DNA from: Fulvivirga imtechensis AK7
GTDB taxonomy: Bacteria; Bacteroidota; Bacteroidia; Cytophagales; Cyclobacteriaceae
DNA length: 64,000 nt
Assembly (NCBI RefSeq): GCF_000331535.1
Contig: NZ_AMZN01000055.1
Coordinates: 1-64,000, forward strand
Direction: 5' to 3'
In this document: piece after piece, positions 51,151-63,292 of the stretch
How positions within the stretch are numbered: position 1 is the first letter of the stretch
Layout of the letters: each line of letters starts with the position of its first letter
Translations under genes and position numbers: made by a program
The notes under the pieces: generated by a model
Seen by the model: the letters and a program-made list of their open reading frames with translations, nothing else
Databases searched by the model: none
Told to the model about the DNA's origin: nothing

Positions 51151-53550
51151 ATGGATAGCGAAATAAAGGTACTGGTAATAGATGACGATGAGGTGGATAG
51201 AATCACCTTAAAGCGGGCTTTGAAAAAGGCTGACCTTGAATTTTCTCTTACAGAATGTTCGGAGGCAGAAGAAGCATTGACCCGGCTCAGGGAGGAAGAA
51301 TTCGATTGTGTCTTCCTCGATTATCTTCTACCCGGTACCGATGGCCTGACATTGTTGAAGCGCTTACGGAGAAGTGGAGTTAAAGTACCTATTATTATTA
51401 TCACCTCGCAGGGAGATGAGAAAGTAGCGGTGGAAATGATGAAATCCGGAGCTTCTGACTATGTGGTGAAGGATCAGATCAACCCTATGAATGTCAAAAA
51501 ACTCATCCAGACAGCCACGGTAGTAAGGGAAATTGAGCGCGAAAAGGAAATAGCAGAACGAGCAAGAAAGGTAAGTGAGGTTCGGCTTTCGGAGGCTCAG
51601 AGGATAGCAAAGATCGGAAACTGGGAGTATAGCTTTAAAACCGATGAAACTTATTGGTCAGAGGAGATGTATCGCATTTTCGAGGTAGATACGGATTCGT
51701 TCCTTCCGAGTGTAAAACACTTTACCGACTTATTCCATCCGGATGACAGGCCAAAAATAGAAGCTGAAATCAAGATGTGTATGGATGGTGGTCATATCTT
51801 CAATCTCGATCTTCGGGCCGTGATGCCTGACAATTCCATTAAATACGTCAACGTCCACTCTTACATGCAATATGATGTAGATGGTAGCTATGATAAATTT
51901 GTAGGTACTACGCAAGACATTAATAAGCGCAAGCAGGTAGAGCAGGAGTTGATAGAAGCTAAAAAAATGGCCGAGGAGTCTGGACGCGTAAAGGAGCAGT
52001 TTCTGGCAAACATGAGCCATGAGATCAGAACCCCTATGAACGCTATTATTGGTTTTGCCAATTTGCTGCTAAAAGAAAAAGACGCATTTACTCCTGAACA
52101 GCGCAAATACATTAATGCAATTCATAACTCCGGGGAAAATCTGCTGGTGATCATCAACGATATCCTGGATTTTTCCAAGATTGAATCCGGGAAATTTGAA
52201 CTTGAGAATGTTGATTTTATTCTGCCACAAGTTGTCAGTAATGTGCTGCATCTTTTCAAACACAAAGTTGTGGAGAAGGATATCAAACTACTTCATGAGA
52301 TAGGTAAAGATGTTCCACATCATTTGGTTGGGGATCCGGTTCGTTTAAACCAGGTATTGGTAAACCTCATTAATAATGCTATAAAATTTACTGAAAAAGG
52401 ACATGTGAAGCTAAAGGTGGAGAAACTTAAAAAAGACAGCGACAAAGCGCTTATCCGATTCTCAGTGCAGGATACAGGTATTGGTATTCCATCAGACAAG
52501 CTTGAATCCATCTTTGATAGCTTTACTCAGGCCAGCAGTGATACCACCAGAAAGTATGGTGGTACAGGGCTTGGGTTGACCATTGTAAAAACAATTGTAG
52601 AACTACAGCAAGGAGAGATATCCGTTCAGAGTCAACTGGGAGAGGGAGCTACCTTTACTATTGATCTGCCATTTGAAATAAGCCAATGTCCTGAAAAGGT
52701 CATTGAGCAGGAAGATACGAGTGGCTTCGAAGAGATCGGTAATCTGAAAGGCGTTAAAGTGCTTATGGCCGAGGATAATGAGATCAATCAGGAACTGGCC
52801 AAGTTTATTTTTGAAGATCTCGGTTGGGCTCTCGATATCGCAGAAAATGGGATAGTAGCACTTGAAAAGCTAAGGGAAAATAAGTACGACATTGTGTTAA
52901 TGGATATTCAGATGCCTGAAATGGATGGATATCAGGCGACACTTAAGATCCGAAATGATTTTGATCCACCGCTGTCTCAAATTCCTATCATGGCTATTAC
53001 TGCCCATGCATTAAAATCAGAGGTGCAAAAATGCCTGGATGCGGGCATGGACGACTATATTTCCAAGCCATTTCAGGTAGAGGAGCTGGCGCGAAAGGTA
53101 GCGACACTGGTGAGGAATAATGAGGAGCACCTGGAAGGGGAAACCGTGGAGCAGAAGACGACTCCTCAGGAGAAACAAGACCAACAAGAGGAGCCTGTGG
53201 ATGAAGGGCCGGTGATAAACCTGGGGCATCTTCATGCTCTTTCCGGAAAGAACTCTGCAATGGTCAATAACATCATCAATATTTTCATCAAAGAAACTCC
53301 GAAAGTGATTGATGAGATCAAGACATACTTTGAACAAAAAGACTGGAAAAGCCTGCAGAGCGTCTGCCATAAAATGAAATCGTCATGCTCTGTGGTGGGG
53401 GCCTCTGCACTGCATAAAAATATGGAAACCTTGGAGATAGACTGCCATCATCAAAATATTGACGAACAAAAATTCCTTGATCTGATCAACCGGTCAGAAA
53501 TACTGCACAAGCGTGCTATAGAAGAATTACAAAGTGAGGTAGGAAGTTAA
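51151..53550 (+). CDS. Hybrid histidine kinase with two receivers and Hpt domain
   Basis: A 799-aa multidomain protein. An N-terminal receiver (about 5-120; DDDEVDRITLK, FLDYLLPGTDGL) is followed by a PAS domain (about 150-270), HisKA (about 280-345; FLANMSHEIRTPMNAIIGFA), HATPase (about 395-505; NLINNAIKFT, GTGLGLTIVKTI), a second receiver (about 535-655; IVLMDIQMPEMDGYQ) and an Hpt (about 695-790; HKMKSSCSVVGASAL). All phosphorelay residues appear intact, so signal can run within one chain. It starts 6 bp after the response regulator. Confidence 0.92.
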   Translation: MDSEIKVLVIDDDEVDRITLKRALKKADLEFSLTECSEAEEALTRLREEEFDCVFLDYLLPGTDGLTLLKRLRRSGVKVPIIIITSQGDEKVAVEMMKSGASDYVVKDQINPMNVKKLIQTATVVREIEREKEIAERARKVSEVRLSEAQRIAKIGNWEYSFKTDETYWSEEMYRIFEVDTDSFLPSVKHFTDLFHPDDRPKIEAEIKMCMDGGHIFNLDLRAVMPDNSIKYVNVHSYMQYDVDGSYDKFVGTTQDINKRKQVEQELIEAKKMAEESGRVKEQFLANMSHEIRTPMNAIIGFANLLLKEKDAFTPEQRKYINAIHNSGENLLVIINDILDFSKIESGKFELENVDFILPQVVSNVLHLFKHKVVEKDIKLLHEIGKDVPHHLVGDPVRLNQVLVNLINNAIKFTEKGHVKLKVEKLKKDSDKALIRFSVQDTGIGIPSDKLESIFDSFTQASSDTTRKYGGTGLGLTIVKTIVELQQGEISVQSQLGEGATFTIDLPFEISQCPEKVIEQEDTSGFEEIGNLKGVKVLMAEDNEINQELAKFIFEDLGWALDIAENGIVALEKLRENKYDIVLMDIQMPEMDGYQATLKIRNDFDPPLSQIPIMAITAHALKSEVQKCLDAGMDDYISKPFQVEELARKVATLVRNNEEHLEGETVEQKTTPQEKQDQQEEPVDEGPVINLGHLHALSGKNSAMVNNIINIFIKETPKVIDEIKTYFEQKDWKSLQSVCHKMKSSCSVVGASALHKNMETLEIDCHHQNIDEQKFLDLINRSEILHKRAIEELQSEVGS

Positions 53551-53573
53551 AATCTTCAATATATACTTTATAC

Positions 53574-54074
53574 TTAGGGTATATTAATTACTTCTTTTAC
53601 TGTTATCAGCTTTCCTTCCGGATCAAAAGTAAGCAGGTAGGCAGGGCCTCTTTCATTCTCTACAGCATCATCTTGTTCTTCTTCATCCAGAAGGAAATCG
53701 TCATTTTCTGTCTGTATTTTTATAATGTAAACTTTATCGCCTTTGTGTGTAATCCGATATTCGCTGAAAAGAACAATAGCATTTATATAGTTGTTACTGA
53801 TCTCATCAGCAACATTTTCGGGCAATTCCCTATCATCCAGCATGGTGGAAGTATATAGCCAAATGCCCTTATCATCAAAACATGCCCGCTTTTCCAGATC
53901 CTGCATATAAAAGCTGGCAATATAGTTCTTTGATTCGCTCTCTGCTGACCACCGTAAGCTCTGAGCCGCAGGAAATTTGGCGTTGAAGTTGCTCACAACC
54001 CGCTGTGGCACATTTGGCTGAGCGAAAATGATAGTGGAGCAAAAGCAAAATACTGCAATCAATGACGTTTTCAT
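53574..54074 (-). CDS. Secreted PepSY-like protein
   Basis: A 166-aa protein with a signal peptide (MKTSLIAVFCFCSTIIFAQ) and a PepSY-like/DUF2874 region (FNAKFPAAQSLRWSAESESK, NYIASFYM; LPENVADEISNNYINAIVLF). Such proteins occur as small periplasmic beta-lactamase-inhibitor-like domains, role unknown. It overlaps the 49-codon ORF upstream by 4 bp. Confidence 0.75.
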   Translation of the reverse strand: MKTSLIAVFCFCSTIIFAQPNVPQRVVSNFNAKFPAAQSLRWSAESESKNYIASFYMQDLEKRACFDDKGIWLYTSTMLDDRELPENVADEISNNYINAIVLFSEYRITHKGDKVYIIKIQTENDDFLLDEEEQDDAVENERGPAYLLTFDPEGKLITVKEVINIP

Positions 54075-54220
54075 TTTGCTTTGCGATCGCCTTTCCTTTT
54101 TTTCCTGGTCTTTGTAACACTGGTCTTTTTTATTTCGCTGATCACAGCAGTCTCCAGCGGCTCATAGCTTTCAGCATCGGCAGGAGCTGAGGGGGCGGAC
54201 ATTAATCTTACCTTTTTCAT
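54071..54220 (-). CDS. Candidate 49-codon small basic protein
   Basis: Reads MKKVRLMSAPSAPADAESYE, then PLETAVISEIKKTSVTKTRK, KRKGDRKAK-stop. Its TGA overlaps the ATG of the PepSY-like gene (ATGA), which suggests translational coupling. The C-terminus is strongly basic. No family is recognised. It could instead be a chance ORF in a 5' leader. Confidence 0.5.
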   Translation of the reverse strand: MKKVRLMSAPSAPADAESYEPLETAVISEIKKTSVTKTRKKRKGDRKAK

Positions 54221-54317
54221 AGCATTATTTTTTAATTAGACGAAAAAATTAACAAAAGTCACGGTCAGTAGTAGTTAAGATCAAGTGACCTTATGGCTCA
54301 TCTTTCGTCAAAAGTTT

Positions 54318-55127
54318 ATGATAGATACCATTAAAACAACAATGGACCGCAAAGAGTTGGTGATACAGGCATGGCATTTAAAAGATAATATTGACATTCG
54401 ACAATGTAGGGAAAAAAATTGCTATAAAATAATATCTGAAAGTAAGAGCGATATCTTTTTTGAGCCGTTTCCGGGGAAGTATGTCTTTATCTTCAACTAT
54501 GGGGTTATCGTTTTTTACCACCTCTCTGTACAAGAAATTGATTCGGTACTCAAGCAGCTTTTTCCCGGTACCAGAAAAGCATCGTTGTTCCATGATACCT
54601 TCGGGCTGATAAGAAGTGATTCTGATGAAATTAATATTCAGTTCAACAGCCTGTCACTAAAACTGATCAATGAGGAAACTATTAAGATCATCATGCTCAA
54701 CCTGGCGCAAAGCGTAGCACTGATATATTATGACGAAGTGTCTCAGGACCTGCTTGCCCATGTAAGACAATTTACCAGCCAAATGGAGGAACAGGGAAAA
54801 CTGAAGATTAGCAGAAAGAACATTTTAAGATTTATAGGTAAGGCGCTGAACACCAAAAACAAGATTGCCGAGAACCTATATATATTTGATGCGCCTCCGG
54901 TAACATGGAATAATGAATACCTTGACAAAGTGCATACCACACTTTCCAGGCATTTCGACCTTGGCCCCAGGTATAGGTCCATCGAAAATACATTTAACAT
55001 TGTAGAGGCTAACCTGGACACGTATATGGAGCTATATCATCAAAAGGAGAGTAGTAAGCTGGAATGGATCATTATCATCCTCATCTTTGTAGAGGTAATC
55101 GACACTTTTCTTACAAAGGTGCTCTAG
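54318..55127 (+). CDS. RMD1/YagE-type DUF155 protein
   Basis: A 269-aa protein of the DUF155 (RMD1/SIF2-like) family with a C-terminal membrane segment (LEWIIIILIFVEVIDTFL). It contains YVFIFNYGVIVFYHL, DFLxSEI-like ELIQFNSL and MLNLAQSVALIYYDEVSQDL. Eukaryotic members act in mitochondrial or vacuolar membranes; bacterial function is not known. Start: ATG at 54318 (an ATG at 54285 is less likely, and MDRKELVIQ at 54342 possible). Single gene. Confidence 0.8.
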   Translation: MIDTIKTTMDRKELVIQAWHLKDNIDIRQCREKNCYKIISESKSDIFFEPFPGKYVFIFNYGVIVFYHLSVQEIDSVLKQLFPGTRKASLFHDTFGLIRSDSDEINIQFNSLSLKLINEETIKIIMLNLAQSVALIYYDEVSQDLLAHVRQFTSQMEEQGKLKISRKNILRFIGKALNTKNKIAENLYIFDAPPVTWNNEYLDKVHTTLSRHFDLGPRYRSIENTFNIVEANLDTYMELYHQKESSKLEWIIIILIFVEVIDTFLTKVL

Positions 55128-55483
55128 TGTTGTGTCAAGCATGCTTTATCCAGATCAAACCCTGTTTTTATCTGCACATTGTAAAAACGTACACTGTGTA
55201 AACCTCACTGTTTGAGACCGATGATATTTTGTTACTTTTTTGTGTCCAAGACAAAAAAATAAGACATATGCTATGAAAAGTCAAAATAGACGCAAAAGTA
55301 CAAACTGAGCAATAAGATGTCATCTTGTCATTGGTAACCAATTGCGACAATCCCCTCTTTCTTGGCGTGCATTAAGAGGGGATCGCTTCTACTCCTCCCC
55401 GTGGCAAGCCTTTGCATTCTACACACTGGCATTAGCTTAATATCACTGCTAAATGTGGGTTTACAGCCAGATTTGACCCCAGG
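55128..55483. other. Gene-free gap with one long inverted repeat
   Basis: No gene is supported in this 356-bp gap. ATCCCCTCTT (55350-55359) and AAGAGGGGAT (55374-55383) form a 10-bp inverted repeat with a 14-nt loop, and TTGGTAACCAA lies just upstream at 55331-55341. It may be a terminator or repeat remnant; nothing else is recognisable. Confidence 0.5.
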
Positions 55484-56056
55484 TTATTTTTTGGCTGATT
55501 TGTATTTCTGATACAGCTTATTTACCTTATCCTTGGCTCTTTTTAACCGCATTTTTACGGCACTTTCCGAAAGACCCAACGTTAGCTGAATATCCTTTAT
55601 GGGGTGTTTCTCCTTGTACTTTAGCAAGAGGATCATTTTTTCATCGGGAGATATTTCTTCCAAAAGCTCCTCCAGGATCTTTACCGATAGCTCTTCCGGG
55701 ATGTCATCCACACCATCGATCATCTCTGATACTTCATCGGCCATTTTTTCGGTGATCACCTGTCGCACATTTTTCTTATTTCTTCGTAAATGGTCCATAC
55801 ATGTATTATGTATAATAGCAAAGAGCCACGTGGAAAAACGGGCCTCTCCCTTGAATGTTTTTATTTTTAAAAAAAGCTTTATCAGTATCTCCTGGCATAG
55901 GTCTTCGGCAACATCTTCGTCTTTTACATAACTCTTGCACTTCTTTAGTATGTATTTTTCATGTCGCTGTGTCAGCACTGAAAAATATCGCAGGTTTGAA
56001 TCTTCCTGCAATAGAAGTACAAGCTCTTCGTCCGGTATATTTTTATCGATCATCAA
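55484..56056 (-). CDS. ECF RNA polymerase sigma factor
   Basis: A 190-aa sigma factor with region 2 (CKSYVKDEDVAEDLCQEILI, then TFKGEARFSTWLFAIIHNTC) and region 4 (DEKMILLLKYKEKHPIKDIQ, LTLGLSESAVKMRLKRAKDK). Length is standard for ECF. It is divergent from the C39-peptidase/ATP-grasp operon, with starts 63 bp apart, so it may regulate that operon; no anti-sigma gene is adjacent. Confidence 0.93.
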   Translation of the reverse strand: MMIDKNIPDEELVLLLQEDSNLRYFSVLTQRHEKYILKKCKSYVKDEDVAEDLCQEILIKLFLKIKTFKGEARFSTWLFAIIHNTCMDHLRRNKKNVRQVITEKMADEVSEMIDGVDDIPEELSVKILEELLEEISPDEKMILLLKYKEKHPIKDIQLTLGLSESAVKMRLKRAKDKVNKLYQKYKSAKK

Positions 56057-56119
56057 AAAAATAAAGGTGACTTTTTAACCTAACCGCGTCAAAACAGTGG
56101 ATTTGAAAATTAGGCAAAG

Positions 56120-56863
56120 ATGCTGTTAAAAACCAAAGAAAAGGTGCTGGATTTAAACATTAAGGCGCAACCTGACGATGTTACCTGCGGACCCACCTGC
56201 TTACATGGCGTATACCAATACTATAAAGATGATATACCGCTAAAGCAGGTGATCAGCGAGGTAAAGCAGCTTTCCTCAGGAGGGACCATCGCGGTGTTGC
56301 TCGCTAATCATGCTTTAAAAAGAGGCTATAACACCACTATTTATACCTATAACCTCAGCACTTTCGACCCCTCCTGGTTCAAGCAGAAGGTCGACTTTGA
56401 GGCTAAGTTGAAGCAACAGTTGGCTGTGAAGCAGGGCGACCACAGACTACAAGTGGCAACCAGCGGTTATCTGCAGTTTTTGGCCAATGGAGGGCAACTG
56501 AAGTTTGAAGAATTGACCCCGGCGCTGATCAAATATTTTCTGACAAAGAAGATCCCGATCTTAACAGGACTTAGCGCAACTTACTTGTATGAAAGCCCTC
56601 GCGAAACCGGAGAGTTCATTACCGGAACAGGTGAATTTGTAGTGCGATACGATGATATCAACGGATTGGCTACAGGTCATTTTGTAATTATCAATGGGTT
56701 TAACCAGAAGCAACGGATGGCTTATATAGCTGACCCTTTAGATCCAAATCCTATTAGTGAAAAGCAATACTACAAAGTGAGCTTTCAGAAGCTTATAAAC
56801 TCAATAATGTTGGGCGTCATGACCTATGATGCCAATTTATTAATTATATACCCTAAAAAGTAA
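56120..56863 (+). CDS. C39-like cysteine peptidase
   Basis: A 247-aa protein with the papain-like C39 signature. The catalytic Cys lies in AQPDDVTCGPTCLHGVYQYY (about 23-27). The His in GHFVIINGFNQKQRMAYIAD and the following Asp fit the second and third catalytic positions. C39 peptidases cleave leader peptides at double glycine sites or trim peptides. Its stop overlaps the next start by one base. It is the first gene of a four-gene operon with peptide-bond forming and removing enzymes. Confidence 0.85.
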   Translation: MLLKTKEKVLDLNIKAQPDDVTCGPTCLHGVYQYYKDDIPLKQVISEVKQLSSGGTIAVLLANHALKRGYNTTIYTYNLSTFDPSWFKQKVDFEAKLKQQLAVKQGDHRLQVATSGYLQFLANGGQLKFEELTPALIKYFLTKKIPILTGLSATYLYESPRETGEFITGTGEFVVRYDDINGLATGHFVIINGFNQKQRMAYIADPLDPNPISEKQYYKVSFQKLINSIMLGVMTYDANLLIIYPKK

Positions 56864-58308
56864 TGCCGAAAATTATTATAACAGAAACTCCGGAAAAATG
56901 GAACCTTAAATTTGAAGGGGTAGAGGTAGTATCTCCTTCAGAGTATTTTAGTAAACCTGAATACCAGGAGTCAAAAGCCTTTAAGATCGTTAACCTTTGC
57001 CGTTCACACCAATATCAGAGTCTGGGGTATTATGTTTCTTTGCTGGCAGAGGCCAGGGGGCATAAGGTTTTACCTGAGATATCTACATTACAGGACTTCC
57101 GGTTTCCCTCGCTGATAAAGGACGATGCCGAGGAGTTCGACACTTTGATACAAAACAGCTTAAAAACACAGCAGGATAGTAAAGTTATCATCAACATCAT
57201 GTTTGGTCAGGTTGAAAACTCTCAATTTTCCAGGTTGGGAGTTTTGTTGTTCAACCTTTTTCAGATACCCATCATTCAGGCCACCTTCATGAGAAAAGAT
57301 AAATGGCAACTTCAGGGGTTAAAGCCTTTACACCTCAAAGACCTTGATGAAGCAAACATTAAAAAGCTACAGGAGGCGCTTTACTATTATATTTCAGGAA
57401 AAAAAGTGGTCAGGAAAAAATATAGCAGAAAGAAATATGATCTGGCATTAATGGTTAGCCCCGATGATCCCACCCCTCCATCAAACGCCAAAGCTTTGCA
57501 GAAGTTTATAGCAGCAGCCGATAAACTTGGTTTCAATACCGAAGCGATTACCAAAAACGATTTCGGTAAGCTGGTACAGTTTGATGCTTTGTTCATACGG
57601 GAGACCACAAATGTGAACCATTACACCTACCGTTTTGCCAAAAAGGCTGAAGCGGAGGGTCTGGTAGTGATAGATGACTCCAATTCCATTCTAAAATGCA
57701 CTAACAAGGTTTATTTACACGAATTATTGGTTGCCAATAAAATAGCAGTGCCCAAGTCACACATTATCAGAAAGGACTATCAGCAAATACCTGCCGATTT
57801 TAATTATCCGATGGTAATCAAGCAGCCTGATGGTTCTTTTTCAAAAGGCGTGAAGAAAGTTTCCGATGAACAGCAACTTCGTGAGACACTAAAAGACCTG
57901 TTTCAGAAATCGGAACTCCTTATTGTGCAGGAATTTGTGCCAACAGCTTACGACTGGCGAGTAGGGGTCATCAATAAACAGCCCCTATATGTATGTAAAT
58001 ATTATATGGCACAAAACCACTGGCAGATCGTAGACTGGAAGAAAAATGGTCAGCACCGGGAGGGGAAGAGCGAAACCATTGCTGTAGCGGATGCTCCCAA
58101 AGCTTTAATAGACACAGCTTTGAAGGCTACAGCCCTGATAGGCTCGGGCTTATATGGGGTGGATATAAAAGAGATTAATGGAAAGTTTTATGTAATTGAA
58201 ATTAATGACAACCCGAACATTGATGCAGGGGTCGAGGATAGAGTGATTAAAAACGGCCTTTACACCAAGGTAATGGAGACATTTATCGAGAGGCTTCAAA
58301 AACGATGA
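56863..58308 (+). CDS. RimK-like ATP-grasp ligase with RLAN-type N-terminal domain
   Basis: A 481-aa protein. The N-terminal half (about 1-185) has no known catalytic motif and matches the RimK-like ATP-grasp N-terminal (RLAN) type. The C-terminal half is an ATP-grasp ligase (PMVIKQPDGSFSKGVKKVSD; LLIVQEFVPTAYDWRVGVI; YVIEINDNPNIDAGVED). ATP-grasp ligases join a carboxylate to an amine through an acyl-phosphate. The substrate is unknown. It overlaps its neighbours by 1 and 4 bp. Confidence 0.88.
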   Translation: MPKIIITETPEKWNLKFEGVEVVSPSEYFSKPEYQESKAFKIVNLCRSHQYQSLGYYVSLLAEARGHKVLPEISTLQDFRFPSLIKDDAEEFDTLIQNSLKTQQDSKVIINIMFGQVENSQFSRLGVLLFNLFQIPIIQATFMRKDKWQLQGLKPLHLKDLDEANIKKLQEALYYYISGKKVVRKKYSRKKYDLALMVSPDDPTPPSNAKALQKFIAAADKLGFNTEAITKNDFGKLVQFDALFIRETTNVNHYTYRFAKKAEAEGLVVIDDSNSILKCTNKVYLHELLVANKIAVPKSHIIRKDYQQIPADFNYPMVIKQPDGSFSKGVKKVSDEQQLRETLKDLFQKSELLIVQEFVPTAYDWRVGVINKQPLYVCKYYMAQNHWQIVDWKKNGQHREGKSETIAVADAPKALIDTALKATALIGSGLYGVDIKEINGKFYVIEINDNPNIDAGVEDRVIKNGLYTKVMETFIERLQKR

Positions 58309-59567
58309 ATAATTCAAGACTACACCTGTTCCAGGGCTATGGTATAGAGCTGGAGTACATGATCGTACATAAAGATTCATTGGCCATTAAACCGGTTACA
58401 GATGAATTATTTAAAAAAATATCAGGCAAGTATACCAGTGAGATAGAAAGGGGCAAGGTGAGCTGGTGCAATGAACTTGTGCTACATGTAGTGGAGCTGA
58501 AAAGTACCAGGCCTGAAAAGGGCCTGGTAGAACTGGCTGATCAGTTCAGCAAAGACATTCGGTCTATCAACAAAGAACTTGCCTCTTTCGATGCCAGGTT
58601 ACTCCCAACGGCGGCTCATCCATTGATGGACCCGGATAGAGATACTTTCCTTTGGCCCCATGATAACAATGAGATATATGAGACTTATAACAGGATATTT
58701 AACTGTCGCGGACATGGCTGGTCTAACTTGCAGAGCACGCACCTCAATCTCCCGTTTTATGACGATGAGGAGTTTGCCCGACTTCATGCTGCCATTAGAA
58801 TAATACTTCCGTTATTGCCTGCTATTGGAGCGAGTTCCCCGGTTCTCAGTGGTAGAAATACGGGATTTTTGGACAAACGGCTCGATTATTATCAGAAAAA
58901 CCAGCGGATCATTCCTTCACTTACAGGAAAGGTGATACCTGAAAGAGCATTTTCGAAGAGACAATATCATAAGATGATCTACGATCGGATTATCCACGAC
59001 ATTACTCCTCATGATCCTAATAACATTCTGCAGCCGGTATGGCTTAATTCGAGAGGGGCAATTGCCCGATTCGACCGAGGCTCCATCGAGATAAGGATTC
59101 TGGATATTCAGGAATGTCCGCGGGCGGATATGGCTATTGTGGCATTGATCATCGGTGTGCTGAAAGTGCTCGTTGATGAGAAACTCGTATCCTTTCATGA
59201 TCAGCAGGCATGGGAGGTTGATCCCCTGCATCAGATCTTTCAAAAAACCATCAAAGATGCAGAACATGCCCTAATTGATAATTTGGATTATATGGCCATG
59301 TTTGGTGTCGGAGCTCATGCACCATTGAAAGCAGTAGAGGTCTGGAGGCATCTTCTGAATTTGGTCAGCAAATATTATCCGGAAGAAATAAAACCATGGC
59401 TGCCACAAATTAATACCATACTGGAGCATGGTACACTCGCAAGCAGGATAGTGAGAACTCTTGGGGGCATATATACCCCTGAAAATATTACCATGGTGTA
59501 TCGTGAATTGGCGGATTGTCTAATGTACAACGAAATGTTTGGTCTATGCATGGAAGAAAGATCTTAA
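58305..59567 (+). CDS. GCS2-type glutamate-cysteine ligase (YbdK-like)
   Basis: A 420-aa carboxylate-amine ligase of the GCS2/COG2170 family. The N-terminus carries GYGIELEYMIVHKDSLAIKP, and the body has NELVLHVVELKSTRPEKGL and STHLNLPFYDDEEFARLHAA, with GSIEIRILDIQECPRADM toward the end. Members make gamma-glutamyl peptide bonds, including weak glutathione-type activity. The context suggests a nonribosomal gamma-glutamyl peptide product; the substrates are not known. It overlaps the following gene by 52 bp (or 22 bp with the later start). Confidence 0.88.
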   Translation: MNNSRLHLFQGYGIELEYMIVHKDSLAIKPVTDELFKKISGKYTSEIERGKVSWCNELVLHVVELKSTRPEKGLVELADQFSKDIRSINKELASFDARLLPTAAHPLMDPDRDTFLWPHDNNEIYETYNRIFNCRGHGWSNLQSTHLNLPFYDDEEFARLHAAIRIILPLLPAIGASSPVLSGRNTGFLDKRLDYYQKNQRIIPSLTGKVIPERAFSKRQYHKMIYDRIIHDITPHDPNNILQPVWLNSRGAIARFDRGSIEIRILDIQECPRADMAIVALIIGVLKVLVDEKLVSFHDQQAWEVDPLHQIFQKTIKDAEHALIDNLDYMAMFGVGAHAPLKAVEVWRHLLNLVSKYYPEEIKPWLPQINTILEHGTLASRIVRTLGGIYTPENITMVYRELADCLMYNEMFGLCMEERS

Positions 59568-60244
59568 TTACCTGCGAACACGCAGGAAACTATATCCCCA
59601 AAGATTATCGGTTCATGTTTGCAGGGGCTGATACAATTTTGATGTCACACCGTGGGTGGGACCCCGGTGCACTGAATCTTGCGAAGTATCTGGCAAGGCA
59701 ACTGGAAGCTCCGCTTTTTATTCAAAAGGCATCTCGTCTCTTGATCGAAATGAACCGTTCATTATACAATAAAGAACTGTTTTCAGAGTTTACAACTAAC
59801 ATCGAACAACGGCTTAAGGACCACCTGCTTGAAAAATACTACTACCCGTACAGGACTGAGGTAGAACAAAAAATTGCTGAGTATATCAATCAGGGTAGCC
59901 CGGTGTTGCATCTTTCCGTGCATACCTTTACCCCGGTGCTCAATGGTATAATCAGAACGGTAGACATCGGCCTTTTGTATGATGATGCCAGGCTGGCTGA
60001 AAAGCGGTTTTGCGAAGAATGGAAACTACGGCTTAATGCCGAATTAACTGAGTCCGTGATTATGCTTAATTGCCCATATAATGGCGCTGACGATGGATTT
60101 ACCACCTACCTCAGAACGAAGTTTCAGGAAAATGACTACCTCGGCATCGAGCTGGAGATCAATCAAAAGCACAATGACACCCCGGAGATGAAACAGATCA
60201 AAGAAGCTCTGGTGTATTCACTGTCCCCATTTATCTACAGGTGA
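59546..60244 (+). CDS. N-formylglutamate amidohydrolase family protein
   Basis: A 232-aa hydrolase. The start is set at the ATG at 59546 (MHGRKILITCEHAGNYIPKD), which gives the normal N-terminus; an ATG 30 bp upstream is possible. Family motifs are ITCEHAGN, HRGWDPGALNLAKYLARQLE and LLIEMNRSLYN, zinc-binding residues being the His and Glu types. The classical role is the last step of histidine degradation. Beside an ATP-grasp and GCS2 pair it more likely hydrolyses or cyclises a gamma-glutamyl or formyl-type intermediate. Confidence 0.88.
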   Translation: MHGRKILITCEHAGNYIPKDYRFMFAGADTILMSHRGWDPGALNLAKYLARQLEAPLFIQKASRLLIEMNRSLYNKELFSEFTTNIEQRLKDHLLEKYYYPYRTEVEQKIAEYINQGSPVLHLSVHTFTPVLNGIIRTVDIGLLYDDARLAEKRFCEEWKLRLNAELTESVIMLNCPYNGADDGFTTYLRTKFQENDYLGIELEINQKHNDTPEMKQIKEALVYSLSPFIYR

Positions 60245-60287
60245 GTTGTGGAAATTTTACACACAATTTTGGTTGCAAGATCCCTGT

Positions 60288-60310
60288 AAATTATTAAGCG
60301 TTAATAATTT
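60288..60310. terminator. AT-rich hairpin after the four-gene operon
   Basis: AAATTATTAA-GCG-TTAATAATTT, a perfect 10-bp AT-rich stem 44 bp after the amidohydrolase stop. Weak as a terminator, but the only hairpin in the gap. A TAnnTTTG-type -7 box (TACTTTTG, about 60405-60412) for the next gene lies further on. Confidence 0.4.
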
Positions 60311-60505
60311 GTAGTGGGATTAGACGCCCATAGACTATATTCTTGCCTCATCGGTAAAAGTTGCAGCTCATATATTAGTATAGTGCAATGCGTTTTCCCT
60401 TACTATACTTTTGTGGCGTCAGTTAAGTGAGTTTGGCACGCGTAGAGAATGGTTCACACCTGCAACTGATAGAAATCAATTTTTCAAGTTTAACAGATTA
60501 TTTCC

Positions 60506-63292
60506 ATGAAGTTAACAATCACAATGCTGTTAATTTTAGCCAGTTTTGCTGCCTTTGCGCAAAACTCCGCTTTAAAGTACAACAAAGTAAAGACAGTTAA
60601 TCTGAACAAGGTCCAGGGGTATTTGGAGCACCTGCCCCCTGGTTACGCAAGCAATCCCACCAAAAAGTATCCGTTGCTTATTTTTTTACATGGTGCTGGT
60701 GAAAGAGGGTCCAGTCCTGCTGATATGCATAAAGTAGCTAAGATTGGTCCACCAAAGGAAGTTGAAAACAATGGAAGCCTTTGTTTTAATGTAAATGGCA
60801 AACAGGAGTGTTTCATTGTCATTTCTCCGCAATTGACCGGGAACGGGAACTGGACCGGTTATGCTCAAAGAGAATTCTGGGATTATATCCTTAACGGCCC
60901 TGAAAACTACAGATATGACCCAAACAGGATATATCTCACCGGGTTATCGCTGGGGGGTAATGGTGTATGGGAACGTGCCTATGATGATGAGAACGGACCT
61001 AATAAATTAGCCGCTATTGCCCCACTGTGCGCCTGGGGAAAGACCAGTAACGGGTGTACCGTAGCCAATAGGAAAATACCCGTATGGGCTTTTCATGGAA
61101 CCAGTGATGATGTAATTAACTATAATTCAGGGTTGAACATGTTTAATTCTGTAAAAAACTGTGGCGCTACGGCTGAAACCAAATGGACCGCTATTCAGGG
61201 TGGTGAACACTGGATTTGGAATGATATATACAAACCTGACCACTCCAATTACAGCCAAAATGTATATGAGTGGATGCTGACCAAAACACTTAACAACTCA
61301 GGCGGTGGAGATGGCGGTAGCAATGACAATACACTTAATCAGTCGCCTGTTGTTGATGCCGGAGATGATATCAATGCAACACTCGAAGATGACCCTGTAT
61401 ACATTACAGCCGAGGCTTCCGACCCTGACGGCTCTGTGGCATCATTTCAATGGAAAAAAATTAGCGGGCCTTCGGCTACCTTATGGAATACTAACAGGTC
61501 AAAACTTACTGTTAAAGACCTGCAAATAGGACAATATACCTTTGAGGTAGTGGTAAAGGATAACGAAGGAAAATCAGCGTCAGATCGTGTATTGTTGAAT
61601 GTAGCTGATGATAACAATACCACGACCACTCGAATAGTAAGTAAAACAACCGGCTATGGACAGAAATACCTGGAGTTTTTGCCTGATGGCTATGACCCTT
61701 CCAAAAGTTATCCGGTTATGGTATACCTGCATTCTGCAGCGGCAGAAGGAACTAACCTGGATCTGATCAAGCAGGAAGGCCCACTGTATTATATCAACCA
61801 GGGAAAAGACCTGTGCTCAAACAATGAGTGTTTTATAGTAGTTGCTCCGCAAATTGCTAAGGGAGCAGGCTTCTGGAAGGGCAAAATAGATCAGTTTTAC
61901 AATTATGTGACCTCTAAATATTCCGTAGCGCCTGACAAGGTCTATCTGGCAGGGTTTGATGAAGGGGCTTCTGATGCGATTGCCCGTTTGCAAGACGATA
62001 CGAACAATCCAAATCGCTGGGCAGGAGCTGCTGTGGTGAGTTACAGCGCCCCTTCTTCTCAGGCCTGCAATGTTGCAGGAACCGATGCCGCCCTCTACTT
62101 CTCACATGGGAAGTCAGATGCCACTAACGACTATAATGCTGCACAAAAATTTTATAACGATGTAGTGGGTTGCGGGGTATCATCTTCAAAATTCCTGTCA
62201 TCTCCTGGCACACAGGCGCAAAGCTGGAAGGCGCTTTTTGACCCGGGTACTTCAGATGTTTACGCTTGGTTATTGGCACGGCCATTAGGCACTGGTGGCA
62301 ATGACTCTAACACAGGCACATCTCCCGGAGGGATCACAAAGAAGACTTCTTCTGACGGCAGAGCATACCTGGAGTATTTACCTGCCGGATATAGCACGAG
62401 CAAAAAGTATCCAGTGATCCTTTATCTTCACTCAGGAGAGGCAGAAGGCACCAATACAGATCTTTTGAAGAGTGAGGGACCGCTTTATTTTGCTAACCAG
62501 GGACAGGCAATCAGTGCAAACGGACAAGGATTTATCGTTCTGAGCCCGCAAATAGCTAAAGGAGCAGGCTTCTGGAAGGGAAAAATAGACAGGTTCTATA
62601 ATTTTATGATGAGCAAGTATTCTATCGATCCTAACCGCGTTTACATTGTAGGCTATGACGAAGGCGCTATCGATGCCTTGTTCAGAATTACCGACACCAG
62701 CAATAGCCCTAACCGATGGGCAGCGGCTGCAGTAGTGAGCTACAGTATGCCATACTCAGTAGCATGCCAGGTGGGAGGTAGCGGTCCGTCACTTTATATG
62801 GCCAATGGAAAGCTTGACGAAGTATATAGCTTTAGCAATGCGCAGACATTTTACAACAAAGTAGATAACTGTTCGTCTGCTACAACGAGATTCGTAACTG
62901 AGTCAGGAGGGCAGACACAAAGCTGGAAACGTACTTTCGACCCCGGGGTAACTACATTGTACTCCTGGCTGCTTAACCAGCAGTTGACCGGACAGACAGC
63001 TTCAGGAGCACGTACCACGGACGAGGCCATGACTATTGAAGATGACCTTAATGAGATGGGCAACCTGACCCAGGTTGAAAAGAACTTCAGAACAGACCAG
63101 TACCAGATCGCTTTGACATCAAGCAATGAGCCGGTTCAGATCACCCTGAACGCCATCGATGGCAGAGCTGTAAAAACGGTAACCAGTCAGGGAGACCTGC
63201 CGTTGGATGGTATTGAGAATGGAATTTACCTATACAGTGTTGTAGATCAGTCGGGAGCTCCGATACAGCGTGGTAGAATAGTGAAACACTAG
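60506..63292 (+). CDS. T9SS-exported protein with three esterase-like modules and a PKD domain
   Basis: A 928-aa protein. A signal peptide (MKLTITMLLILASFAAFAQ) leads to module 1 (about 20-270), an alpha/beta hydrolase with LIFLHGAGERG, nucleophile motif GLSLGG and His in GGEHWIWND. A PKD-like domain follows (about 280-375), then modules 2 and 3 (about 390-600 and 615-830) and a T9SS type A sorting domain (about 855-928, ending GAPIQRGRIVKH). In modules 2 and 3 the nucleophile elbow reads GFDEGA/GYDEGA and the His is lost, so only module 1 looks catalytic. Polysaccharide-ester or polyhydroxybutyrate-type substrates are possible. Confidence 0.85.
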   Translation: MKLTITMLLILASFAAFAQNSALKYNKVKTVNLNKVQGYLEHLPPGYASNPTKKYPLLIFLHGAGERGSSPADMHKVAKIGPPKEVENNGSLCFNVNGKQECFIVISPQLTGNGNWTGYAQREFWDYILNGPENYRYDPNRIYLTGLSLGGNGVWERAYDDENGPNKLAAIAPLCAWGKTSNGCTVANRKIPVWAFHGTSDDVINYNSGLNMFNSVKNCGATAETKWTAIQGGEHWIWNDIYKPDHSNYSQNVYEWMLTKTLNNSGGGDGGSNDNTLNQSPVVDAGDDINATLEDDPVYITAEASDPDGSVASFQWKKISGPSATLWNTNRSKLTVKDLQIGQYTFEVVVKDNEGKSASDRVLLNVADDNNTTTTRIVSKTTGYGQKYLEFLPDGYDPSKSYPVMVYLHSAAAEGTNLDLIKQEGPLYYINQGKDLCSNNECFIVVAPQIAKGAGFWKGKIDQFYNYVTSKYSVAPDKVYLAGFDEGASDAIARLQDDTNNPNRWAGAAVVSYSAPSSQACNVAGTDAALYFSHGKSDATNDYNAAQKFYNDVVGCGVSSSKFLSSPGTQAQSWKALFDPGTSDVYAWLLARPLGTGGNDSNTGTSPGGITKKTSSDGRAYLEYLPAGYSTSKKYPVILYLHSGEAEGTNTDLLKSEGPLYFANQGQAISANGQGFIVLSPQIAKGAGFWKGKIDRFYNFMMSKYSIDPNRVYIVGYDEGAIDALFRITDTSNSPNRWAAAAVVSYSMPYSVACQVGGSGPSLYMANGKLDEVYSFSNAQTFYNKVDNCSSATTRFVTESGGQTQSWKRTFDPGVTTLYSWLLNQQLTGQTASGARTTDEAMTIEDDLNEMGNLTQVEKNFRTDQYQIALTSSNEPVQITLNAIDGRAVKTVTSQGDLPLDGIENGIYLYSVVDQSGAPIQRGRIVKH

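Follow-up and report, generated by a model that had tools for sequence, protein, structure and literature searches.

A conserved C39-RLAN/ATP-grasp-GCS2-FGase operon of Fulvivirga imtechensis AK7 as a candidate pathway for a small capped peptide

Glutathione synthesis, taken together with Alr0975, employs a carboxylate-amine ligase, an ATP-grasp ligase and a papain-fold hydrolase of Alr0975 shape. The same elements are found in the operon described here, which occupies the + strand at 56120-60244 of a 64-kb stretch of Fulvivirga imtechensis AK7 DNA (the window; all coordinates are window positions) and encodes, in series, a C39-like protease, an RLAN/RimK-like ATP-grasp ligase, a GCS2 ligase and an FGase hydrolase. 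The operon differs from glutathione synthesis in its additional RLAN domain and FGase enzyme, in ligases that score below the glutathione cut-offs, and in belonging to a genome that has BshC. A RimK-like ATP-grasp enzyme is shared with the RimK/RimB and LysX/ArgX systems, the first of which also has an opposing protease, but the operon has an RLAN domain and a GCS2 partner, and its hydrolases are a cysteine hydrolase and an FGase enzyme, not a retropepsin. Clusters of RLAN, GCS2 and FGase genes were reportedly predicted in 2009 by Iyer et al. to be amidoligase pathways, which is the same general prediction for the same families, and we know of no product for this gene set. A literature search, outside of which most subscription papers fell, found no paper on this operon, and absence from print is not claimed. 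The operon for the osmolyte N-acetylglutaminylglutamine amide (NAGGN) is composed of asnO, ngg and a peptidase gene (PA3459-PA3461), Ngg performing both N-acetylation and peptide-bond formation (PMC8070244). The NAGGN operon resembles the present one in bringing N-capping, ligation and a peptidase together, and the GNAT-RLAN version of the present gene set follows the same logic; the differences are that no AsnO-like gene is among the named genes, that GCS2 stands for GNAT, and that C39 and FGase stand for an aminopeptidase.

On balance, we lean slightly towards the view that the operon both assembles and degrades a small, N-capped, non-ribosomal peptide metabolite of two or three residues; the computed support for this view consists of conservation, intact catalytic residues, alternation between GCS2 and GNAT, gene fusions and an associated promoter site. 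The four-gene arrangement is not a product of chance, because its full order recurs in 23 of 26 loci of relatives and in 41 of the best 80 named loci. The first set derives from a search of 117 genomes with the window GCS2 protein, which found matches in 30, full length in 27 with its own genome included, and it comprises the loci of the 26 other genomes with a full-length match; the exceptions are L040, which meets a contig end, L053, without C39, and L044, without FGase (L numbers designate loci). The second comprises the best 80 of at least 559 relatives confirmed by a GCS2 profile scan of named genomes, and it shares places with the first as judged from contig and length (L063/L038, L064/L040, L081/L046, L089/L043, L092/L051 and L141/L053). 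Two of the named loci have RLAN-GCS2 and two have GCS2 without RLAN, and several exceptions end at contig ends. By title, the taxa include Bacteroidota, Planctomycetota, Acidobacteriota, Hydrogenedentota and desulfobacterial groups, bearing in mind that labels of metagenome-assembled genomes can err, and the named genomes nearest by GCS2 match are Fulvivirga, Reichenbachiella and Roseivirga (Cytophagales). The original prediction had treated the four genes as one unit and proposed a search for their order in Bacteroidota; they do form a conserved gene unit, and the order is spread across several phyla. A remnant at L058:1808-2729 consists of an FGase gene split over two frames and part of a GCS2 gene, and no RLAN was found within 15 kb.

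The gene overlaps stated in the original prediction (1, 4 and 22-52 bp) were reproduced from the open reading frame (ORF) calls: the C39-like and ATP-grasp genes overlap by 1 bp, the ATP-grasp and GCS2 genes by 4 bp, and the GCS2 and FGase genes by 22 bp with an FGase ATG at 59546 or by 52 bp with a TTG at 59516. The ATG agrees with the family alignment, and the 22-bp overlap is also present in same-genus loci. The ATP-grasp protein (481 aa; 56863..58308, +; Pfam RLAN 3.5e-44, RimK 2.4e-14) passes the gathering cut-off of RLAN (PF14401; 150.5 against 25) and the cut-off of the Pfam RimK domain (53.8 against 21). Its RLAN domain with linker, as modelled (56863..57426, +), has a reduced ATP-grasp-like fold by structure comparison (VIA-align), while in the ATP-grasp half, whose closest solved sequence relatives are LysX, RimK and ArgX, residues K282, K320, R366, D434, E446 and N448 are invariant in 29 aligned sequences. 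Assignment to the RimK family alpha-L-glutamate ligases (TIGR00768) was rejected at 89.5 against an NCBIfam cut-off of 143.4, and the NAGGN synthetase Ngg (TIGR03103) is not in the best 25 of 47 families listed for the window protein. The GCS2-family carboxylate-amine ligase (420 aa; 58305..59567, +; Pfam 3.7e-26) scores 92.6 bits against a gathering cut-off of 21 (PF04107), and its family alignment (A1) contains 21 sequences. It falls under the cut-off of every one of the nine NCBIfam models listed, among them the YbdK family (45.8 against 176.4), EgtA (16.4 against 370.8) and PRK13515 (52 against 371). Its substrate residues, which bear on the gamma-glutamyl-type product of the original prediction, could not be assigned because no significant relative of the GCS2 family was found by sequence among solved structures.

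Two hydrolases flank the ligases. The C39-like cysteine hydrolase (papain-fold, clan CA; 56120..56863, +; Pfam Peptidase_C39_2 4.6e-7) has a Cys-His-Asp set and a papain-like fold that is, by VIA-align, equally close to the phytochelatin synthase Alr0975 and to C39 peptidases; according to structure titles, the Alr0975 structure is an acyl-enzyme with glutathione. A double-glycine leader peptidase of an ABC exporter was rejected as an identity, the protein having only 247 aa and C39-type Pfam matches alone. The FGase-family amidohydrolase (232 aa from the ATG, with the TTG start possible; 59546..60244, +; Pfam 6.6e-20) scores 72.6 against the Pfam FGase cut-off of 28.9, and its nearest solved structure is 2odf (E 2.4e-37). 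Its residues E10, H11, H34, D38, H121 and H125, counted along the 231-aa piece from 59549, are invariant in 27 aligned sequences, and the catalytic residues are likewise invariant in the family alignments checked. The N-formylglutamate deformylase HutG was rejected (12.1 against an NCBIfam cut-off of 278.75). The removal of a product, which the original prediction had proposed, would fit the presence of two hydrolases.

The GNAT and GCS2 families each form an amide on an amino group, and these two families alternate beside RLAN. In 56 loci picked by RLAN, 20, 33 and 3 from three phyla, the partner, scored if on the same strand within 6 kb, was GCS2 in 37, GNAT in 18, both in none and neither in one (L217); frames of odd length were deliberately included, and these proportions are therefore not those of a random sample. 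Of the 18 GNAT-type genomes, 14 were searched and yielded no GCS2 ortholog, whereas four of four controls had one. GNAT is fused ahead of RLAN (L183 and L188, for example), is fused to a DUF3335 domain in the adjoining gene (L192, L199, L200, L221 and, from plasmid records, L195 and L196), or forms a separate gene (L218, L219, L220, L223, L229), and RLAN and GCS2 are themselves fused in one frame of 974-1022 aa in L213, L214, L215 and L222. A profile comparison based on an alignment of three sequences relates DUF3335 to the window C39 protein (96% probability, E 4.9e-9), and GNAT fusions of DUF3335 are noted in a published classification (PMC10318531). The GNAT part of L192 scores 38.1 against the Ngg model TIGR03103, for which the NCBIfam cut-off is 569. 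A quick first RLAN tree contained 76 proteins (55 from RLAN-picked or plasmid loci, the window protein and 20 chosen others; L173, L192, L217, L218, L219, L223 and L136 were dropped as too short), and it placed eight GNAT fusions within a branch of GCS2-type proteins and required three partner changes; a second tree of 55 rows, with long branches and others removed, required two. These sequence trees support at least one GNAT/GCS2 replacement, not several.

Five plasmid records also carry RLAN: L195 and L196 are of GNAT type, L197 is of GCS2 type, and no partner of either kind accompanies RLAN in L194 and L198. The orphan RLAN ligase at L194:5902-7491, on a Pseudomonas aeruginosa plasmid, lies near genes for a gamma-glutamyltransferase and a glutamate/aspartate transporter. 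At L197:1-3232, in a Legionella adelaidensis 'plasmid' record, RLAN-GCS2-FGase stands beside fur, bamE and dapF, and because these genes adjoin it the record may be a chromosomal fragment.

Divergent from the operon is a gene for an extracytoplasmic function (ECF) sigma factor (189 aa from the ATG, TTG 56056 possible; 55484..56053, -; Pfam Sigma70_r2 1.8e-17), and such a gene adjoins the operon in 13 of the 26 relatives and 8 of the 80 named loci. The distance of 63 bp between the ECF and C39 starts given in the original prediction holds if the TTG at 56056 is used and does not hold from the ATG at 56053. The pattern GTGAC-N14-16-CGTC, which resembles ECF promoters, was searched in 390 nt around the C39 start, or the RLAN start where C39 is missing, after leaving out 7 of 106 loci that had fewer than 200 nt to search or neither gene. 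It was present in 21 of 21 loci with a divergent ECF gene, among which two pairs come from the same genome (L038/L063 and L043/L089), against 1 of 78 without; this one, L066, has no ECF homologue in 21 kb by tblastn. The background is 0.005 sites per 390 nt, and three permuted motifs were each found in 0 of 21 ECF loci. The 64-kb window holds three matches, all at the operon locus: GTGAC-N15-CGTC ahead of the operon (56067..56090, +), GTGAC-N16-CGTC ahead of DUF155 (54285..54309, +), and a divergent GTGAC-N15-CGTC ahead of a small ORF (54239..54262, -). The association is thus local, since the exact GTGACTTTN12-13CGTC is not enriched genome-wide (3 matches against 6 of the reversed control in its own genome, 17 against 16 in six genomes), and a genome-wide ECF regulon was rejected on this count; a distal site shared with two relatives (L235-L237) was dropped because it appeared inside a reading frame. 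A conserved promoter-like site is therefore tied to the sigma gene by sequence pattern, the suggested link to the adjacent sigma factor is strengthened, and the operon is probably switched on by this factor in F. imtechensis.

The second site precedes a DUF155 (RMND1/Sif2-Sif3) protein of 269 aa (54318..55127, +; Pfam 1.3e-31), whose likely start is the ATG at 54318; the GTG start called at 54285 falls on the promoter-like site itself. By eye, a site lies at or just ahead of the called DUF155 start in 10 of 10 ECF-bearing loci with an adjoining DUF155. The DUF155 family can be tied to the pathway because it shares this promoter-like site and stands immediately 5' of C39 in other Cytophagales loci. 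Behind the third site lies a lysine-rich small ORF of 49 aa (54071..54220, -), which abuts a PepSY-like gene (53574-54074, -) upstream of the operon. Relatives of 45-51 aa occur in five same-genus loci (L032, L033, L034, L037, L039), while in a sixth, L035, the small ORF is the N-terminal part of a longer frame. A small precursor peptide had been proposed as something to look for near the operon; when 25 small non-genic ORFs from 53001-61000 were compared by tblastn with the loci of the 26 relatives, matches were confined to the three nearest, L032, L033 and L034, and the 49-aa ORF, which is one of the 25, had no match at threshold and was recognised only through its promoter site. Being known so far solely from same-genus loci, this ORF probably does not serve as a general precursor. 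Other genes behind such sites include a second ligase/hydrolase set adjoining the operon at L049:9312-11787, behind a further GTGAC-CGTC site, which pairs a glutathione-synthetase-like ATP-grasp (PRK12458, 441.8 against 408) with an FGase-MATCAP (QEGLA) fusion, and genes for proteins of about 245 aa whose N-termini resemble those of lipoproteins (L038:10275-11009, L041:11220-11966, L050:6842-7579).

In the pathway proposed for the small peptide, GCS2 would form an amide between a carboxylate, probably that of glutamate, and the amino group of the first amino acid, and the GNAT version would carry out the equivalent N-acylation from acetyl-CoA. As GNAT and GCS2 both form amides and are interchangeable beside one ligase, this step would cap the N-terminus and the ATP-grasp enzyme would then extend the product, activating its free carboxyl and attaching a second amino compound, on the plan of Ngg for NAGGN and of GshA/GshB for glutathione but towards a different end product. 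Of the two hydrolases, the cysteine hydrolase, which resembles C39 and Alr0975, would cleave the bond that the ATP-grasp step forms, and the FGase-family member would take off the N-acyl cap, making the pool recyclable. In this genus, the divergent ECF sigma factor would jointly activate the operon, DUF155 and the small ORF. The substrates, the reaction order and the existence of the product as a free metabolite are what we infer from the computed evidence.

Several observations weigh against this proposal. RLAN-GCS2-FGase occurs without C39 in 22 of the 80 named loci, at least four of them close to a contig end, and C39-RLAN-GCS2 occurs without a nearby FGase in 13, three of them close to a contig end (L084, of this type, has an FGase gene some 1.9 kb beyond), so neither hydrolase would be essential. 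The C39 protein was also not found in eight flavobacterial genomes, in a search that had no positive control. Neither GNAT nor GCS2 accompanies RLAN in L217 or in two plasmid-borne cases. A single GNAT clade is not rejected by the first tree (p-value of the approximately unbiased test, p-AU, 0.43) or by the second (0.58, 55 rows), which is why only a minimum of one replacement is claimed and repeated GNAT/GCS2 swaps were dropped, a single clade being compatible with both trees; the alternation may rest on one event. Furthermore, some of the solved enzymes closest to the ATP-grasp half act on proteins (RimK on S6, LysX/ArgX on LysW), so the target could be a protein.

This last point leads to the main rival, a protein or peptide tagging cycle in which the ATP-grasp enzyme attaches amino acids to a protein, as RimK does to S6, GCS2 supplies or caps a tag on a side chain, and the two hydrolases, C39 and FGase, take it off again. 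The kinship with RimK, LysX and ArgX speaks for such a cycle, as do the opposition of the protease RimB to RimK, stated in two sources (PMC12239564, PMC11957791), and the second ligase set with its FGase-MATCAP fusion in L049. It is nevertheless unlikely, given that no further gene is common to most loci as a target (the commonest neighbours beyond the four core genes, DUF155 and ECF, are found in 29 of 106 loci each) and that C39 and FGase can be absent. GCS2 enzymes, moreover, are reported to act on free amino acids. The presence of two amide-bond hydrolases could alternatively mean that the operon salvages or degrades N-acyl or gamma-glutamyl peptides and that ligation is a side activity, but the ATP-grasp half retains all six residues checked and, in a set picked by GCS2, no pair of genes is as constant as RLAN-GCS2 whereas the hydrolases are lost, which makes this reading improbable.

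Similarly improbable is the maturation of a ribosomal peptide with the 49-aa ORF as substrate. The ORF does stand behind the same type of site, and the codon-position differences over 33 codons in three pairs (2/2/17, 5/5/23 and 4/6/14, mainly third) point to real coding; it is, however, outside the operon, other genes stand behind other such sites, and it was seen behind such sites in seven same-genus genomes including the window's, other genomes not having been searched. Ordinary glutathione or gamma-glutamylcysteine synthesis has in its favour that a GCS2 family member with an ATP-grasp enzyme corresponds to the GshA/GshB plan, and that the operon GCS2 is the sole GCS2 gene found in its genome, in which no PF04262 gene was found. 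Against it, GCS2 scores 36.1 of the 249.05 needed for gshA_cyano, the ATP-grasp protein scores 50.5 of the 408 needed for glutathione synthetase (PRK12458), and bacillithiol is likely the thiol of this genome because it carries BshC. With BshC, a single GCS2 gene and no PF04262 gene, a thiol role for the operon is not needed, though it could exist. The original prediction had named ordinary glutathione enzymes as the finding that would count against it; with both ligases under the curated cut-offs, membership in the glutathione families is rejected, glutathione chemistry could still be performed, and this is the least probable of the explanations, to be given very little credence.

The operon is real and conserved, has a strong computed regulatory link and, in the searches made, has no reported product. 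New in this analysis are the GNAT/GCS2 alternation, the association of the ECF site, the reduced ATP-grasp-like fold of RLAN and the likeness of C39 to Alr0975. More tentatively, at somewhat less than even likelihood, the gene set may make an undescribed low-molecular-weight peptide, no less widespread than RLAN ligases in Bacteroidota and Planctomycetota, by means of a tandem ATP-grasp (RLAN as a degenerate N-terminal copy, and an active copy) with an interchangeable GCS2/GNAT capper, as an ECF-controlled response in Cytophagales. Together with the alternation of GNAT and GCS2 and with the sigma site, the gene order sharpens what was a vague prediction to a compact, testable pathway; it comprises four enzymes and a candidate control circuit, and its two ligase versions lend themselves to comparison. 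Own genomes included, RLAN was found in 35 of the 296 genomes drawn from the phylum of the window, in 53 of 199 from that of L099 (titled Planctomycetaceae) and in 4 of 148 from that of L094 (titled Pelobacter), and with the first two of these frequencies the metabolite, or tag, could be common and yet have been missed.

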